From NCBI GenBank assembly GCA_011374975.1, contig DRNU01000249.1, forward strand, positions 1-38,338: 38,338 nucleotides of DNA, written 5' to 3'. The notes under the pieces are model-generated. The model ran no database searches, had not been told where the DNA came from, and saw only the letters and a program-made list of their open reading frames with translations. Positions within the stretch are counted from its first letter, which is position 1. Every line of letters begins with the position of its first letter. The position numbers were made by a program, and so were the translations under genes. This document shows, one piece after another, positions 5,359 through 29,076 of the stretch. This DNA is from Gammaproteobacteria bacterium. Lineage in GTDB: Bacteria > Pseudomonadota > Gammaproteobacteria > DSM-19610.

Positions 5359-5796
5359 TTACTTGGCAACGGACATGCCTGCGCTGTCCAGCACCTCAGG
5401 CTTCGGGGCCGGTTCCGGCTTTGCGGCCCGCTGCGGCCCGACCTGGTGCAGCAGGTTCCCGTTCACTTCGGCGCCCATCGCCATCTCGATCATATGATAG
5501 TAGACATCGCCGGTCACCCTGGCATGGCTGGCCAGCTCCACGCGGTCGCTGACGTGGACATCGCCCTGCACGGCGCCGTTCAGCACCAGGTTAGGCACGC
5601 GCACATCACCTTCGATGCGGCCGTCATCGCTCACCGTCAGCACGGCATCCGAACCCGCTTCGGCGATGATATTACCCTTGATAGTGCCGTCCACATGCAG
5701 GCCGCCACTGAAATGGATGTCACCTTCCAGCCGGGTCTGCGGCCCGATTACCGTGTCGATACCCGAACAGCCGGATTTTTTGCCGATTCCAAACAT
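5359..5796 (-). CDS. Bactofilin (polymer-forming cytoskeletal protein)
   Basis: Small beta-helical cytoskeletal protein (DUF583/bactofilin family) that self-assembles into filaments without a nucleotide and often scaffolds wall enzymes at the membrane. The N-terminus MFGIGKK is followed by the turn-rich repeats typical of the fold (VIGPQTRLEGDIHFSGG, VDGTIKGNI, DGRIEGDVRVPN, GAVQGDVHVSD), then a Pro/Ala/Lys tail. 145 residues, normal length. It lies between the coiled-coil membrane protein gene and erpA, all on the minus strand, and near an M23 peptidase; bactofilin-M23 pairing is a recurrent theme, although here the peptidase is on the other strand. Confidence 0.9.
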   Translation of the reverse strand: MFGIGKKSGCSGIDTVIGPQTRLEGDIHFSGGLHVDGTIKGNIIAEAGSDAVLTVSDDGRIEGDVRVPNLVLNGAVQGDVHVSDRVELASHARVTGDVYYHMIEMAMGAEVNGNLLHQVGPQRAAKPEPAPKPEVLDSAGMSVAK

Positions 5797-5830
5797 AGTT
5801 TTACTCCTGGTTGTACAACAGTCGGCCGTT

Positions 5831-23274: not shown

Positions 23275-24954
23275 CTACTCGTCAGTCACACAACCCAGCG
23301 AAGCATCCTTCACGTTCTTGATGTACTTGTGCAACGTGCCGCGTGTCGCCTTGTAGGGCGGCATATTCCATTCTGCAAGGCGCTTCGCCATCTCGTCATC
23401 GCTGACATCGACATCCAGGCGCTGCGTGCCGGCATCAATGGAAATGACATCACCGTCGCGGATCAGGCCGATCGGCCCGCCTTCCTGGGCCTCGGGCACC
23501 ACGTGGCCGATAATGAAGCCGTGTGAACCGCCGGAGAAGCGGCCGTCGGTAATGAGTGCGACATCCTTGCCCAGCCCGGCCCCCATAATCGCCGAGGTGG
23601 GGGTCAACATCTCAGGCATGCCCGGACCGCCCTTCGGGCCCTCGAAGCGGATCACCACCACGTCGCCCTTCTGGACTTCCTTGTTTTCCAGCCCTTTCAG
23701 CATGTCTTCTTCGCAATCGTAGACACGCGCCGGCCCTTTGAACTGCAGGCCTTCCTTGCCGGTGATTTTCGCCACCGAGCCACCCGGCGCCAGGTTACCT
23801 TTCAGGATCTGGATATGCGCGGTTGCCTTGATCGGGCGATCCATCGGCATGAACACCTCCTGGCCGGCTTTCAGGCCCGGCAGGTCGGCGACGTTTTCGC
23901 CGAGCGTCTTGCCGGTGACAGTCAGGCAGTCGCCGTCCATCAGGTCATGTTCCAGCAGGTATTTGATTACCGCCGGGGTACCGCCGACATCATGCAGGTC
24001 TTCCATCACGTATTTGCCGGACGGTTTCAGGTCGGCCAGGAACGGCACCCGGTCGCTGACTTTCTGGAAATCATCGAGGCTGAGCGGCACGTCCACGGCA
24101 CGCGCCATGGCGATCAGGTGCAGCACCGCGTTGGTCGAACCGCCCAGTGCCATGACGATGACCATGGCATTCTCGAACGCGGCGCGGGTCATGATGTCGC
24201 GCGGCTTGATATCTTTTTCCAGCAGCTGGCGGATCGCCAGCCCGGCCTGCAGGCATTCTTCCAGCTTGCCGGGGTCAATGGCGGGGATGGAGGCGCTGTA
24301 GGGCAGGCTCATACCCAGTGCCTCGATCGCGGATGCCATGGTGTTGGCCGTGTACATGCCGCCACAGGCGCCGGCGCCGGGACAGGAATTCTCGACGATC
24401 ATCTCGCGATCGTGGTCGTCGATCTTGCCCGCGATGTACTCACCGTAGCTCTGGAAGGCCGAGACGATATCCAGCGTGGCATTTTTCCAGTGCCCCGGCT
24501 TGATGGTGCCGCCATAGACCATCAGTGACGGTCTGTTGATACGCCCCATCGCGATGAGCACGCCCGGCATGTTCTTGTCACAGCCGGGGATGGAAATATT
24601 GGCGTCATACCACTGGGCATTCATCACCGTCTCGACGGAGTCGGCGATGATGTCACGTGACTGCAGAGAGTAGCTCATGCCGTCAGTGCCCATGGAGATA
24701 CCGTCACTGACACCGATGGTGTTGAAGCGCATGCCCACCAGCCCGGCGGCCTGCACGCCCTCCTTGATCTTTGCCGCAAGATCATTGAGGTGCATGTTGC
24801 AGGTATTGCCCTCCCACCAGACGCTGGAGATGCCGACCTCGGGTTTCTGCATGTCCTCGCGGGTCAGCCCGGTGCCGTACAACATGGCCTGGGAAGCGCC
24901 CTGCGAGCGCGGTTCGGTGATACGCGAGCTGTATCGGTTCAGTTTTTTGGACAT
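23275..24954 (-). CDS. ilvD: Dihydroxy-acid dehydratase
   Basis: Fe-S enzyme that dehydrates dihydroxy-isovalerate and dihydroxy-methylvalerate in valine and isoleucine synthesis and supplies the CoA precursor ketoisovalerate. 559 residues. Three cluster-ligand cysteines are seen, C52 ([10 protein letters not shown]), about C125 (GCDKNMPG) and about C197 (CPGAGACGG), the pattern of the [2Fe-2S] subclass. ATG 24954 is chosen because GAGGTGG immediately precedes it; the GTG 24960 would lie within that ribosome site. A promoter is predicted at 24996-25024. Convergent with the SH3-protein gene and probably a client of ErpA-type carriers. Confidence 0.96.
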
Positions 24955-24995
24955 AGCCACCTCAGAAAGACCGGGATACCGTTATCGAGCAGGGT

Positions 24996-25024
24996 ATTCT
25001 ACCGGCCAAAGAGGCGCACTCCAA
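24996..25024 (-). promoter_or_regulatory. Sigma-70-type promoter of ilvD
   Basis: On the minus strand TTGGAG (25024-25019), 17-base spacer, TAGAAT (25001-24996), 42 bases before the ilvD ATG. The -10 box matches five of six positions and the -35 box keeps TTG. Confidence 0.5.
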
Positions 25025-25069
25025 TGCACTTTTATGCGCTTTCGCAGATCAGGCGCAGCCGTTCTTCGC

Positions 25070-25267
25070 TCAGGACTGGTGACAGCTCCTGAAACCGAAG
25101 ATCGCGTAGGCCGGGCACCAGCCCATCAAACCGGTCAATAACGGCACCGCGCCGATCAATCCCCAGGGAAACAGTGTATCCGCCAGCGGGCCGACAAAGG
25201 TCAGCACCAGCAGAACACTGCCTGCCACTATACGAAATCCACGATCGATACCACATACATTAGCCAT
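25070..25267 (-). CDS. Small membrane protein, DUF2892/YgaP-TM-like
   Basis: 65-residue protein with two hydrophobic helices (about 12-30 and 34-52) and the motif GWCPAYAIFGFRSC near the end, typical of the DUF2892 family that forms the membrane part of YgaP rhodanese. Here no rhodanese domain is attached. The ATG has AGGTGAG a few bases upstream. It lies 111 bases after the Crp/Fnr gene on the same strand; this pairing recurs in sulfur-metabolising bacteria as I recall. The paired cysteines suggest a redox or sulfur role, which is inference. Confidence 0.8.
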   Translation of the reverse strand: MANVCGIDRGFRIVAGSVLLVLTFVGPLADTLFPWGLIGAVPLLTGLMGWCPAYAIFGFRSCHQS

Positions 25268-25378
25268 GACTCACCTCACAGGGCACTTGTTGAAAAGAGG
25301 ATTCAACAATACCCGTCCGCGCAGCAAACAGCAGTGATTAAGTCACTGAACTCCCACACCATGCCTGCGCGGTATGTT

Positions 25379-26047
25379 TCACACCTCCGCGTCGTGCCAG
25401 ACCTGCAACAGGCCGTCAGGCTGGAGAATTTCGACTTCCCCGCGGCGCACGATGATCCAGCCCCGCTTCTCGAAGACTTTCAGCTGGCGACTGATGACCT
25501 CGCGCGCGGTACCCAGCTCACTGGCCAGTTGCTGGTGGGTTGCGGTCACCGTGCCCGGCCGATTGCCGCAGCGATCGATCAGGTGCCTGGCCAGCCTTGC
25601 ATCGATACGGCCGAAGGCGACTTCTTCCACGCGCTGGATCAGGTCACTCAGACGCTGCCCCTGGCCGGCAAACACAAAACGGCGGAACGCCGCGGAACGG
25701 CCCAGCATTTCGTTAAAGGTGGCCTGCGGTATGATCAGTGCCCCGGTTTCTGTTTCGGTGACACCCTCAGCCGGGTAGGATTCCTGACTGATCAGGCAGG
25801 AGGTGGTGATCACACAGGACTGGCCTGCGCCCACGCGGTACAGGACCACTTCGCGGCCACCCGGCGACAGCGTCTGCACCCGGACGCAGCCATCCACCAC
25901 CACCAGGTAGTTGCGGCACACATCGCCGCGGTGGAACACGGTCTGCCCGGCCGGAAGGCGCACACACTGCACCTGGGCGCGCAGCTGTTGCATGGATACA
26001 TCGTTCCCGGGAAACCATTTTTCCAGCAGTTGTTCGGCGTTATTCAT
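25379..26047 (-). CDS. Crp/Fnr-family transcriptional regulator
   Basis: 222-residue regulator with an N-terminal cyclic-nucleotide-binding-type beta-barrel (about 25-110), a dimer helix (about 120-150), and a C-terminal winged helix with TVTATHQQLASELGTAREV (about 168-187) and recognition helix ending ISRQLKVFEKRGW. The E..SR spacing of the recognition helix (EVISR) is that of Crp/Fnr proteins binding TTGAT- or TGTGA-like half sites. Cysteines occur at about 28, 44, 53, 77 and 84 but not in the Fnr N-terminal cluster pattern, so it is not a classical Fnr. Divergent from regBA across a 319-base region rich in regulatory signals; probably an oxygen, NO or redox responder. Confidence 0.88.
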   Translation of the reverse strand: MNNAEQLLEKWFPGNDVSMQQLRAQVQCVRLPAGQTVFHRGDVCRNYLVVVDGCVRVQTLSPGGREVVLYRVGAGQSCVITTSCLISQESYPAEGVTETETGALIIPQATFNEMLGRSAAFRRFVFAGQGQRLSDLIQRVEEVAFGRIDARLARHLIDRCGNRPGTVTATHQQLASELGTAREVISRQLKVFEKRGWIIVRRGEVEILQPDGLLQVWHDAEV

Positions 26048-26084
26048 GGCACTACCCGCTCAGGGGAACTCAAATCAACCCGCC

Positions 26085-26104
26085 ATGCCGGCGCAGGCCG
26101 GCAT
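26085..26104. repeat. REP-like palindrome upstream of the Crp/Fnr gene
   Basis: ATGCCGGC, loop GCAG, GCCGGCAT form a perfect 8-bp hairpin in the 5' region of the Crp/Fnr gene. The extended wording CATGCCGGCGCAGGCCGGCA belongs to a class of dispersed palindromes common in proteobacteria. Compare 23229-23262. Confidence 0.6.
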
Positions 26105-26169
26105 CCAGTTTGATGACGAAGGCTCAATTATTCAGAGTTTACCGGACAATAACAGCTGCAATCGGAAAT

Positions 26170-26197
26170 AAAAAAGGCGCAGACAAAAGCCTGCGCC
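26170..26197 (-). terminator. Intrinsic terminator on the minus strand
   Basis: Minus-strand GGCGCAG (26197-26191), 8-base loop, CTGCGCC (26182-26176) and then six T (26175-26170). Well formed, yet it lies upstream of the Crp/Fnr gene on the same strand with no protein gene before it. Confidence 0.8.
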
Positions 26198-26249
26198 AGG
26201 TGCCCGGTTCAGAGGAGAGGAAGATTCGCTGATGATCTTGCCTGAACCG
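26170..26249 (-). ncRNA. Candidate small RNA (or Crp/Fnr leader attenuator)
   Basis: Between the divergent Crp/Fnr and regB genes the minus strand carries a complete small-RNA-like layout. A TATGAT box lies at 26259-26254, an 8-bp stem CGGTTCAG/CTGAACCG closes 26249-26205, an inner stem AAGAT/ATCTT closes 26239-26221, a C/U-rich stretch (CTTCCTCTCCTCT) complementary to Shine-Dalgarno-like sequence follows, and an intrinsic terminator ends it. No coding frame of note lies inside. The -35 region is poor. It could act in trans by pairing to ribosome sites, or could be the premature end of the Crp/Fnr leader, whose ATG is 122 bases further on. Prediction only. Confidence 0.45.
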
Positions 26250-26317
26250 CGGGATCATATCGGCATGTGCACAATCTAGCACCGATGCCCGGCGTCCGGA
26301 ATGTGGCACAGTGTCGC

Positions 26318-26332
26318 GCGACAATTTGTCGC
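26318..26332 (+). promoter_or_regulatory. RegA/RoxR-like binding palindrome upstream of regB
   Basis: GCGACAATTTGTCGC is a perfect 6-bp inverted repeat around ATT. It agrees at all but one position with the RegA/RegR consensus GNGRCRTTNNGNCGC as I recall it. A second palindrome, TGTCGCGCGACA (26312-26323), overlaps it. Its centre is 42 bases before the predicted transcription start, the usual place for an activator, so autoregulation by RegA is likely. Confidence 0.6.
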
Positions 26333-26351
26333 ACGCCGCGGGTTCCGGAAC

Positions 26352-26360
26352 TGCTAGAAT
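26352..26360 (+). promoter_or_regulatory. Extended -10 promoter of regBA, probably leaderless
   Basis: TGCTAGAAT is an extended -10 element (TGn plus TAGAAT). It ends 6 bases before the regB ATG at 26367, so transcription would begin at or next to the start codon. No Shine-Dalgarno precedes regB and no good -35 box is seen, which fits a promoter that depends on an activator bound at 26318-26332. Confidence 0.5.
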
Positions 26361-26366
26361 TCCCGC

Positions 26367-27635
26367 ATGCGACTTCAGGATCCGACCAGGGACAGCAGCA
26401 CACGCAACCTGAAGCGTCTGTTCATGTTACGCAGCCTGGTCATCGGCGGCGAACTGCTTGCGCTGTTACTGGCCAACACCCTGGCCGGGCTGGAACTGCC
26501 GGTACAGCCCCTGCTGCTCATTATCGGTATCCTGACTGCGGTAAATTTCTGGACCTGGCGCAGGATTCTCGGCTCGACCAGCATCCGGGACGGGGAGTTT
26601 TTTATCCAGCTGTCGATCGATGTACTGGCGCTGACCGGCGTGCTGTATTTTACCGGTGGCGCCACCAATCCCTTTGCCTGGTTTTTCCTGATCCCGCTGA
26701 TCATCGCCGCGACCGTGCTGTCAGCCACCGCAACCTGGTCGATGGCGCTGCTGACTACCGCCTGCTACACGCTGTTGATGTTCTATTTCATACCGCTGGC
26801 GGGTAATGACCACATGCAGCACGATGCCAATTTCGCCCAGCACGTGTTCGGCATGTGGTTCGGCTTCGTGCTGAGCGCCGCGCTTATCGCCTGGTTCGTG
26901 GTCGGCATGGCCAATACCCTGCGCAAACGCGACCGCCTGCTCGCCGAGGTTCGCGAACACGCACTGCGCGATGAACAACTGGTGGCGATGGGCACACTCG
27001 CCACCGGCGCCGCCCACGAACTCGGCACACCACTGGCCACCATGGCGATCCTGACCAAAGAACTGGAACGGGCCGATGTCTCCGCTGACATGCAACGCAA
27101 GCTGGGCATCCTGCACAACCAGATCAGGCGCTGCAAACAGGCCCTGTCGGTGATTTCAGCATCCGCCGGCGAGGTGCCCGCCGAAAGCGGCGGCCTGGTA
27201 CAGGTGGAACACTTTATCGAAAAGCTGACGACTGAATGGCAGCAACTGCACCCCGACACGGCGCTGGACGTCCAGCTGCAGGATGGAGCCTCACAAGCTC
27301 ACATTGTTGCTGAATACACCCTGCACCAGGCATTGATCAATCTGCTCAACAACGCCGTGGAAGCCTCATCGGAAACACTGGTCCTGAAAGCCGGCTGGGA
27401 CAGCCGCCGGCTGGAAATCGAAATCCTGGACCGCGGGCCTGGCCTGCACCCGCAAACCGCCAGTACAATTGACCAGCGCAAGACAAGTCACAAGGAGTAC
27501 GGCATGGGCCTTGGCCTGTTCCTGACCCACGCCACGTTGCAGCGGCTGGGCGGAAATATCGAACTGTTCGATCGCGAGGGCGGCGGCACCTGTACCCGCG
27601 TCGTCCTGCCACTGGCAACCTTCTCGCTGTCATGA
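26367..27635 (+). CDS. regB: Redox sensor histidine kinase RegB (PrrB/RoxS-type)
   Basis: Membrane sensor kinase of 422 residues that controls respiratory and redox genes through RegA. About six hydrophobic segments fill residues 20-182. The quinone-sensing heptapeptide GGATNPF is at 97-103, the phosphorylated H217 sits in GAAHELGTPLATM, and C256 in IRRCKQAL corresponds to the redox-active cysteine of RegB. The ATPase domain follows with NLLNNAVEAS, DRGPGLHP and KEYGMGLGLFLTH. All three diagnostic elements are intact, so the system should be functional. The last codons overlap regA by 4 bases (ATGA). The transcript may be leaderless and autoregulated. Confidence 0.95.
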   Translation: MRLQDPTRDSSTRNLKRLFMLRSLVIGGELLALLLANTLAGLELPVQPLLLIIGILTAVNFWTWRRILGSTSIRDGEFFIQLSIDVLALTGVLYFTGGATNPFAWFFLIPLIIAATVLSATATWSMALLTTACYTLLMFYFIPLAGNDHMQHDANFAQHVFGMWFGFVLSAALIAWFVVGMANTLRKRDRLLAEVREHALRDEQLVAMGTLATGAAHELGTPLATMAILTKELERADVSADMQRKLGILHNQIRRCKQALSVISASAGEVPAESGGLVQVEHFIEKLTTEWQQLHPDTALDVQLQDGASQAHIVAEYTLHQALINLLNNAVEASSETLVLKAGWDSRRLEIEILDRGPGLHPQTASTIDQRKTSHKEYGMGLGLFLTHATLQRLGGNIELFDREGGGTCTRVVLPLATFSLS

Positions 27636-28180
27636 ATACAGAAGCCGACTCGAAACCATCCCTGCTGATCGTAGACGACGACGAGATCTTCTGCGAAGTC
27701 CTGTCGGATGCGCTGACGGATCGCGGCTATGAAGTTGCCAGCGCACACGATATCAAGGGCGGCCTGGAACAGGCGGCGCGTTTGTCACCAGAGTATGCCG
27801 TTATCGACCTGCGTATCGGTCAGGAATCCGGTCTGACACTGGCACAGCAGCTACATGCACAGGACGAGAACACGCGCATGGTGATCCTGACGGGTTACGC
27901 CAGCATCACAACCGCCGTGGAAGCCATCAAGCTGGGCGCCGTGCATTACCTGACCAAACCCGCCGACGCCGACGAGATTCTCGCCGCGCTGCACAAGGAT
28001 GAAGGGGATGCCAGCGTACCGCTATCCGGGAACCCGCTCTCGGTCAAACGCCTGGAATGGGAGCACCTGCAGAAAGTACTGGCTGAATGCAACGGGAATA
28101 TCTCGGCCGCGGCCCGCAAGCTGTGCATGCACCGGCGCACCCTGCAACGCAAGCTGGCCAAGCGGCCGGTGAAAAGCTAG
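27632..28180 (+). CDS. regA: Redox response regulator RegA (PrrA/RoxR-type)
   Basis: Response regulator of 182 residues. The receiver domain (about 8-125) has D15/D16, the phosphorylated D59 (VIDLRIG) and K109 (YLTKPAD). The C-terminal Fis-like helix-turn-helix contains ISAARKLCMHRRTLQRKLAKRP, virtually the invariant RegA DNA-binding sequence (about 153-179). A cysteine replaces the usual Gly in RKLGMHRRTLQ. Cotranscribed with regB by a 4-base overlap. Its stop codon and the motY stop share the palindrome CTAG at 28177-28180. Confidence 0.95.
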   Translation: MNTEADSKPSLLIVDDDEIFCEVLSDALTDRGYEVASAHDIKGGLEQAARLSPEYAVIDLRIGQESGLTLAQQLHAQDENTRMVILTGYASITTAVEAIKLGAVHYLTKPADADEILAALHKDEGDASVPLSGNPLSVKRLEWEHLQKVLAECNGNISAAARKLCMHRRTLQRKLAKRPVKS

Positions 28181-29076
28181 GGCGACGATACCTTCGGGGC
28201 ACCGGTCAGCCAGATAGTCACACGGCGATTCTTCGCCAGTGCCGGTTCGCCGGAATCCGTGACCAGCGGCTGGCTCTCGCCGAAGAAACGAGACTCGATC
28301 GCCCCGGAAGCAACGCCACGCGAGCGCAGGTAACGTGCTGCCATGTTGGTACGGCGCTGCGACAGCAGCATATTGAAATCGGCGTCGCCACGCGCGTCGG
28401 CATGCCCGCCCAGCACAATACGGAAATCCTTGCGCTTGCGGTAATCGCGCGCAACCTGTTCCAGGGTACGACGTGCGGCGCGGCTCAGGCGATCACTGTT
28501 GGTGGCGAAGAACACATTCTTTTCCGCCACCGGTTCAAAATCCAGGTATAACAAGCCGGCCGTACAGGCCAGAAACGCCGGCAGTGCCTCGCGGAACCGA
28601 ACCGGCATCAACGCTACCTGCACCCGGTCCCTGCCGTCACCCCAGTCGGCAAATTCGAACACCGGCTGCATGCCCTGTTCCAGCTCGGCATAGATACGCA
28701 TGGCCTGCTCACGCGGTACGCGCAATGGCATGCTGCCCTGCCTGAAATTAAAACTGCCCAGCTCACGGCTCTCACCAACGTGCTTCCAGGCCGGCACCTC
28801 GGAAGACAGCTGTGCCTGGTGATCGCGCACCGGCGGCTGGTCGACGTGAATGGAAAACCGCAGCCGCTGGCCGGACGCCTGCTCGAAACGGGCCCGCCCA
28901 AAATGCGGGATCTCATGGCTCAAGGCACAAAAACCGGCGCGCGACTCGACTTCCCAGCGCGACTGTTCCCAACTGGCCTGGAATTGCTGGGTGGAAGCAA
29001 ACAGGCCCTGGCTGACCAGGACCAGCCCAAGCCACAGGCCTGTGCCGGTGCAGCGATGTCGTAATACGTTTTTCAT
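28177..29076 (-). CDS. motY: MotY-like OmpA-family protein (flagellar stator-associated)
   Basis: Exported protein of 299 residues: signal peptide (about 1-25, ending LFAS), an N-terminal MotY-type domain with SWEQSRWEVES and CALSHEIPHFGRARFE, which closely parallels Vibrio MotY, and a C-terminal OmpA/MotB-like peptidoglycan-binding domain (about 180-295) with VLGGHADARGDADFNMLLSQRR and KNRRVTIWL. MotY forms the T-ring that holds PomAB/MotAB stators at the flagellar base. ATG 29076 is chosen since it begins the signal peptide; the frame is open to 29223 but unconserved. No other flagellar gene is near. A more general OmpA-family envelope role is the alternative. Confidence 0.8.
   Translation of the reverse strand: MKNVLRHRCTGTGLWLGLVLVSQGLFASTQQFQASWEQSRWEVESRAGFCALSHEIPHFGRARFEQASGQRLRFSIHVDQPPVRDHQAQLSSEVPAWKHVGESRELGSFNFRQGSMPLRVPREQAMRIYAELEQGMQPVFEFADWGDGRDRVQVALMPVRFREALPAFLACTAGLLYLDFEPVAEKNVFFATNSDRLSRAARRTLEQVARDYRKRKDFRIVLGGHADARGDADFNMLLSQRRTNMAARYLRSRGVASGAIESRFFGESQPLVTDSGEPALAKNRRVTIWLTGAPKVSSP

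Follow-up and report, generated by a model that had tools for sequence, protein, structure and literature searches.

Organization of the locus

The stretch of DNA analysed here, called the window throughout, is 38,338 nucleotides long and derives from a gammaproteobacterial genome (G000). On its minus strand, between the genes for a Crp/Fnr-family regulator and a regB-like sensor kinase, lies a hairpin followed by an intrinsic terminator, which an original prediction made from the sequence had proposed as a possible small RNA. The features of the locus are listed below, where OMPx denotes a protein gene (about 333 aa) found beside the RNA in some relatives.

25379-26047, minus strand: Crp/Fnr-family regulator, downstream of the RNA (PF00027 and PF13545)
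26170-26175, minus strand: U run of the terminator (U-rich end in 12 of 12 copies, with one interruption, in G010)
26176-26197, minus strand: intrinsic terminator stem-loop from the terminator scan, 9 pairs of which 7 are GC, loop of 4 (double changes at 3 terminator pairs)
26205-26249, minus strand: first hairpin of the RNA, loop of 29 nt, by coordinate check and folding (conserved in 12 genomes)
26249-26242 and 26212-26205, minus strand: arms of the first hairpin, CGGUUCAG and CUGAACCG, 8 bp
26213-26224, minus strand: CU-rich loop segment UCUUCCUCUCCU, equivalent in position to UCCCUCCC of the relatives in the 12-copy alignment
26252-26267, minus strand: 16-nt stretch between two homologous blocks (block ends from G007 and G016), containing TATGAT; G007 has about 1.1 kb here, including OMPx
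26273-26281, minus strand: TGCTAGATT, an extended -10-like element common to the region upstream of OMPx in G007 (putative promoter)
26303-26332, no strand assigned: two adjacent GCG inverted repeats, GTGGCACAGTGTCGC and GCGACAATTTGTCGC, RegA-like by sequence match and located between regB and the RNA
26367-27635, plus strand: regB-like redox sensor kinase (NF033792, E 2.2e-68, 231 bits, under the curated cut-off of 350)
27632-28180, plus strand: regA-like response regulator (NF033791, E 2e-59, 200.5 bits, under the curated cut-off of 250)

Most elements of the original prediction were recovered at their positions. The minus-strand TATGAT is present (26254-26259), as are the 8-bp closing stem (26205-26212 with 26242-26249) and the strong terminator with its six U. 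The terminator is the top site in a scan of 24000-29000, which returned 10 terminator-like sites against 4.0 expected, and one of two sites in the whole window at which a perfect stem of at least 6 bp precedes at least six T. A consensus scan of 24000-29000 gave no sigma-70-like promoter (1.2 expected). The C/U-rich loop was likewise found, and its sequence resembles an anti-Shine-Dalgarno sequence. A proposed inner 5-bp stem (AAGAU/AUCUU) stood only in part: its arms are complementary and pair for the most part in the centroid structure, but the minimum free energy fold favours a different 3-bp helix, and the loop is open in 8 of 11 relatives.

Two further sequences at the locus were noted. 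A palindromic, repeat-like sequence (GGATGCCGGCCTGCGCCGGCAT, minus strand, 26085-26106) occupies part of the interval from the terminator to the Crp/Fnr start and was not seen there in the relatives compared. At 26354-26369, the plus-strand CTAGAATTCCCGCATG contains a -10-like TAGAAT that the regB ATG follows within a few bases, a position which suggests that the regB leader is very short or absent.

The 91-nt RNA has a minimum free energy of -33.9 kcal/mol, against -23.4 +/- 3.3 for shuffled sequences (z -3.2; 0 of 200 equally good). This absolute stability is matched or exceeded by 26% of 1276 sampled 91-nt windows from the same sequence. The fold is thus unconvincing on its own, and it is conservation in 12 of 20 genomes that raises the element above chance.

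Conservation and extent of the family

An initial DNA search over 56 genomes identified G007 and G016 as the best-matching relatives. Both keep the hairpin, but about 1.1 kb or more separates it from the regB promoter region. Reading the regions upstream of the eleven closest Crp/Fnr homologues yielded ten copies of the RNA (G002 has none), from which a covariance model was made; a search with this model added the copies of G014 and G005. The model finds one strong match each in 12 of 20 genomes of the order (E 2.8e-16 to 1.7e-9). Ten of these genomes built the model and two, G014 and G005, are independent of it, and all 20 belong to one family. The window copy scores 67.8 bits and the other copies 57.9-87.6. 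Among 369 genomes of the class, searched with stricter filters, 18 pass E 0.01: three are strong matches, all from the genus of the window and including its own genome, and 15 are weak (E 0.002-0.007) and by eye ordinary terminators except two. An exact pattern search, which is blind to the forms in the window, G010, G013 and G017, returned seven named contigs, comprising three from Thiohalobacter, three from Thiogranum and one from another gammaproteobacterium.

Rfam release 15 (4227 models) gave no match at gathering scores, nor at E<=1 on 26060-26370. Among the matches listed from the open PubMed Central subset, there was no small-RNA paper on Thiohalobacter or Thiogranum, and the match to Thiohalobacter was unrelated. 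The original prediction would have been refuted by the lack of a conserved structure in relatives with the same gene neighbourhood; the structure is present upstream of ten of the eleven closest Crp/Fnr homologues. With its structure, CU-rich loop and terminator kept in 12 of 20 genomes and no counterpart in Rfam, we consider the structure real, and the best explanation for it is a small-RNA gene that had not been described.

Three genomes from two other families contain a separate common element, CCTCCTTTGGTGGTTT before a GGCGCGG terminator (L064 1501-1564, L081 1501-1574, L086 1501-1568). Two of these three loci come from the weak class-wide model matches in the 369 genomes, none of the three has an Rfam match, and in L086 a sigma-70-like sequence was seen by eye upstream. 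The element is possibly a second undescribed small RNA.

A sigma-E-like site upstream of the RNA in relatives

The pattern GAACYT-N14-19-GTCT, picked after the sequences had been seen, occurs in 10 of 12 genomes in the 300 nt that precede the RNA. In G016 a site of this type is more distant, behind an insertion of about 180 bp, and the window has none upstream of its RNA. A more independent test relied on a matrix derived from the sites upstream of rpoE, for which 11 of 13 genomes were used (G004 has no anchor, and the truncated G012 was excluded). All 11 of these regions carry GAAC-17-GTC at -66 or -67, an arrangement that fits an autoregulated promoter. The best match of the matrix in the 400 nt upstream of the RNA was a TGAAC/GGAAC-type site in every one of the 11 genomes other than that of the window; the chance expectation is 0.001 to 0.13 per genome and spacing was free over four values, making single matches of modest significance. 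The 400 nt upstream of the window copy hold no GAAC-type site: the best score, 8.57 at -352, belongs to another type, and the lowest score among the relatives, 9.35, is not far above it. A promoter of the kind that marks sigma-E-dependent small RNAs is thus present, as judged by sequence, in 11 of 11 relatives and not in the window copy, pointing to control by envelope stress in the former. Published forms of the sigma-E -35 element are GGAACTTTT (PMC1804206) and GGAACTT (PMC8103513).

With respect to a wider regulon, the strict pattern GAACTTN{15,17}GTCTNNA gave 26 sites in ten genomes, five of them the RNA's own, against 20 for the reversed control; the assembly of the window genome gave none. 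As the pattern is not clearly enriched genome-wide, we claim no wider regulon.

The site lies outside OMPx in six genomes and inside the 3' coding end of OMPx in five (G007, G016, G009, G012 and G013), where the RNA comes after the OMPx stop codon. The original prediction that no protein gene lies upstream on the same strand therefore holds for the window but not for these five relatives. A Pfam scan of two OMPx copies gave no match; we take the protein to be outer-membrane-like, given its signal-like start and C-terminal phenylalanine. In all five genes the site reads AAC TTT TAY ... GGT GTC TTT. Across them, 25 of 135 invariant degenerate residues keep one codon, as compared with 5 of 5 in the two promoter boxes, and the spacer codons vary. 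The corresponding hypergeometric P of 1.5e-4 is optimistic since the boxes had already been noticed before testing, and at the level of plain nucleotides 14 of 988 windows of OMPx are as conserved as that containing the motif. The RNA-linked proteins share 58% (G009), 56% (G012), 68% (G013) and 94% (G016) identity with that of G007; OMPx proteins without the RNA behind them share 60% (G002), 63% (G004) and 50% (G005). The full motif is missing from all three of the latter, G004 keeping a GAACCTTTT-like -35 and no -10.

The insertion of G016, which separates the RNA from the OMPx stop codon (L097 about 5620-5822), has inverted ends (CCCGCATTTCTCACC...GGTGAGAAATGCGGG), and insert-like sequence recurs within L097 8312-8872, as a small mobile repeat would.

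The window copy

OMPx was found neither at the window locus nor anywhere else in the assembly of the window genome, which is 88.8% complete. Aligned with its relatives, the window resolves into two blocks, the match to the region upstream of OMPx in G007 running to 26268 and the match to the RNA starting at 26251 (against G016) or 26232 (against G007). On the simplest reading, a single deletion would have taken OMPx together with its internal promoter. A tree of five concatenated proteins, rooted on G017, places the window beside G007 and G016 (support 99), both carriers of OMPx, but the deep nodes are weak (33 to 67), and the order of gain and loss is accordingly uncertain.

The TATGAT box of the original prediction falls in the 16 nt that separate the two blocks and is not common to the relatives. 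A better conserved candidate is TGCTAGATT, whose TGCTAG is also found in G016 and G013 and which could serve as the -10 of a transcript of about 98 nt. Further upstream are the RegA-like boxes, one of them an exact GCGAC-N5-GTCGC. The pattern GCGRCN5GYCGC has one match in the window where 1.32 are expected by chance, so that only the conservation of the box upstream of regB counts: GCGACAATTTGTCGC is identical there in G007, G016 and G013, and the G002 box differs from it by one change. A similar adjacent pair of GCG inverted repeats occurs on another contig of the window genome (C178; L002 1504-1533), upstream of a gene which by eye resembles that of a TonB-dependent receptor and which may belong to the same regulon.

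Two regulatory genes could not be located in the same 88.8%-complete assembly. The first, rpoE, was considered for loss, a reading we rejected: matches to the rpoE neighbourhood stop at contig ends, and an assembly gap is therefore likelier. The second, hfq, was found in 12 of 13 genomes searched, that of the window being the exception. An intrinsic terminator with a U run, which together with hfq is expected of Hfq-dependent small RNAs, is present in 12 of 12 copies.

From its position between two redox regulators, the RNA had been predicted to act in their network. For the family this does not hold, as the relatives have a sigma-E-like site; for the window copy alone it is plausible, given that no such site was found and that RegA-like boxes lie upstream. 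We put the chance that the window RNA still works under RegA-linked control at nearly even. The most serious competitor, which we nevertheless regard as unlikely, is that the copy is a decaying relic left by the loss of OMPx and the internal sigma-E promoter, serving perhaps only as a terminator that insulates Crp/Fnr from transcription on the regB side. The missing GAAC site would agree with decay, as would a loop that has drifted and lengthened (29 nt, against 21-27 in the relatives), the empty sigma-70 consensus scan and the failure to find hfq in the assembly. Against it stand the completely preserved stem arms, the strong terminator and a bit score inside the range of the other copies. 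Another form of control over a working RNA, or error, would account for the rest.

Other readings of the conserved element

That the element is just the 3' end of the OMPx mRNA, a terminator with a stabilising hairpin and no regulation in trans, would suit the five genomes in which it follows the OMPx stop codon. We consider this improbable. Six genomes (G001, G005, G010, G011, G014 and G017) keep the RNA with no OMPx upstream of it on that strand, each with its own sigma-E-like site; G002, conversely, has OMPx followed by Crp/Fnr without the RNA, and the loop motif is conserved. In G011, a distant OMPx homologue (about 29%) is oriented away from the RNA, and a possible OMPx remnant between promoter and RNA scores 50, a value reached by 2% of 200 shuffles.

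The conserved parts of the RNA are the stem CGGUUCAG/CUGAACCG, the CU-rich loop with UCCCUCCC, and the terminator. The loop motif occurs in 9 of 12 copies, the deviating ones being those of the window, G010 and G013. It is predicted to be mostly unpaired in relatives (0.73-0.99); the window segment has a value of 0.49 but overlaps the stem, and this figure is hence not comparable with theirs. Covariation, a check named in the original prediction, was examined in two alignments. In a ten-sequence alignment, five of 17 pairs show a double change, three of them in the terminator. For the first stem, paired cells make up 96.9% of those in the 12-sequence alignment; one change is double, six are one-sided (G-U), and three cells at the outermost pair are unpaired. 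This signal is matched by 114 of 500 shuffles and thus not above them. With covariation in the first hairpin this weak, the argument is carried by conservation of sequence and layout. Highly conserved arms might equally be expected of an inverted repeat acting as a DNA operator with no RNA structure, but we find this very improbable: apart from the three outermost cells, the changes in the arms preserve pairing, by G-U or by double change, the loop varies from 21 to 29 nt, and each of the 12 copies continues, on its own strand, into a U-tailed terminator. A small-protein reading was also set aside, as loop lengths range over 21-29 nt and a scan of ATG and GTG starts found none common to the core.

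The original prediction also offered an attenuator in the Crp/Fnr leader, as might be suggested by the 10 of 12 genomes in which the RNA precedes Crp/Fnr on a common strand. This reading is scarcely credible: the RNA occurs at a locus lacking Crp/Fnr in two genomes (G014 and G005), Crp/Fnr occurs without it in G002, and in G009, G011 and G012 a separate promoter-like sequence (TTGACT-17-GATAAA) comes after the terminator and ahead of the Crp/Fnr start. In G014 and G005, Crp/Fnr, regB and regA are absent at E 1e-20 within 11.5-12 kb around the RNA, which lies beside a peptidyl-prolyl-isomerase-like gene (named by eye) with ilvD within the locus; weaker Crp/Fnr homologues occur elsewhere in both genomes.

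Discussion

Taken as a whole, the explanation we judge likely is that of a small-RNA gene driven by sigma-E in relatives, linked to OMPx in some of them, and linked to RegA in the window. The gene would occupy the minus strand from 26170 to about 26267 and encode one CU-loop hairpin followed by an intrinsic terminator. In relatives the RNA is most probably transcribed by sigma-E (RpoE), and its CU-rich, anti-Shine-Dalgarno-like loop would pair with the ribosome-binding sites of mRNAs, repressing them during envelope stress. In some relatives the RNA would stand alone behind its sigma-E-like promoter; in others the promoter would lie in the 3' coding end of OMPx and the RNA would form the OMPx 3'UTR, a layout known from MicL and cutC. 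In the lineage of the window, where OMPx and the internal promoter are missing, the RNA now sits behind what appears to be the former OMPx promoter region and the RegA-like boxes, and is probably expressed under RegA-linked sigma-70 control.

Known systems offer partial parallels. MicL (SlrA) is a sigma-E-dependent small RNA transcribed from within cutC (PMC9438474, PMC8103513). The relatives share with it a sigma-E-type promoter, by sequence, inside a coding region and an RNA in the 3'UTR; here, however, the host gene is outer-membrane-like and not cutC, there is no Rfam match, the RNA stands alone in some species, and the window copy is without the site. RybB and MicA are short intergenic RNAs with a GGAACTTTT-like -35 and a -10 of GTCAAA (PMC1804206). 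The present RNA is likewise short and intergenic with a comparable -35, TGAACTTTT, but differs in having a -10 of GTCT, a candidate seed in a hairpin loop and no match in Rfam. The anti-Shine-Dalgarno RNAs alpha-r14 and NfeR1 have three hairpins, each with CCUCCUCCC (PMC10746234); our RNA has a similar unpaired loop, but a single such hairpin, carrying UCCCUCCC or a variant that has drifted in the window. Finally, in the MicX/MalH pair the RNA has a promoter of its own in one species and is mRNA-derived in another, at an unchanged location (PMC9438474). The same alternation between stand-alone and mRNA-derived forms would apply here, although the promoter arrangement differs between members of a single genus and some species lack the host gene.

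We were unable to name targets for the proposed pairing with ribosome-binding sites. The pattern GGGAGGGAN{2,11}ATG, searched in 9 genomes, gave 50 rows, two of which are the antisense reading of the RNA locus itself, and its reversed control gave 24. At 49 of the 50 places, reading frames of 40 aa or more were compared; recurrence was confined to one pair between G007 and G016, two between G014 and G005, and a pair of copies within G005. Since recurrence reaches no wider than sister species or copies within a genome, no target is claimed.

The RNA is of a known kind, but its family is absent from Rfam and belongs to a little-studied lineage of sulfur bacteria. We hold more tentatively, and at somewhat less than even confidence, that one genus contains three promoter arrangements for it: a stand-alone sigma-E promoter, a sigma-E promoter embedded in outer-membrane-gene codons and, in the window lineage, where that gene was lost, RegA-linked control of a copy with a drifted seed. 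If true, the genus would offer a natural example of gene gain and loss rewiring an RNA from envelope stress to redox control. The related loci allow the promoter of one RNA to be compared as intergenic, as embedded in a coding sequence and as replaced, and a series this compact would make the origin of 3'UTR-derived small RNAs, and their change of regulator, directly testable.
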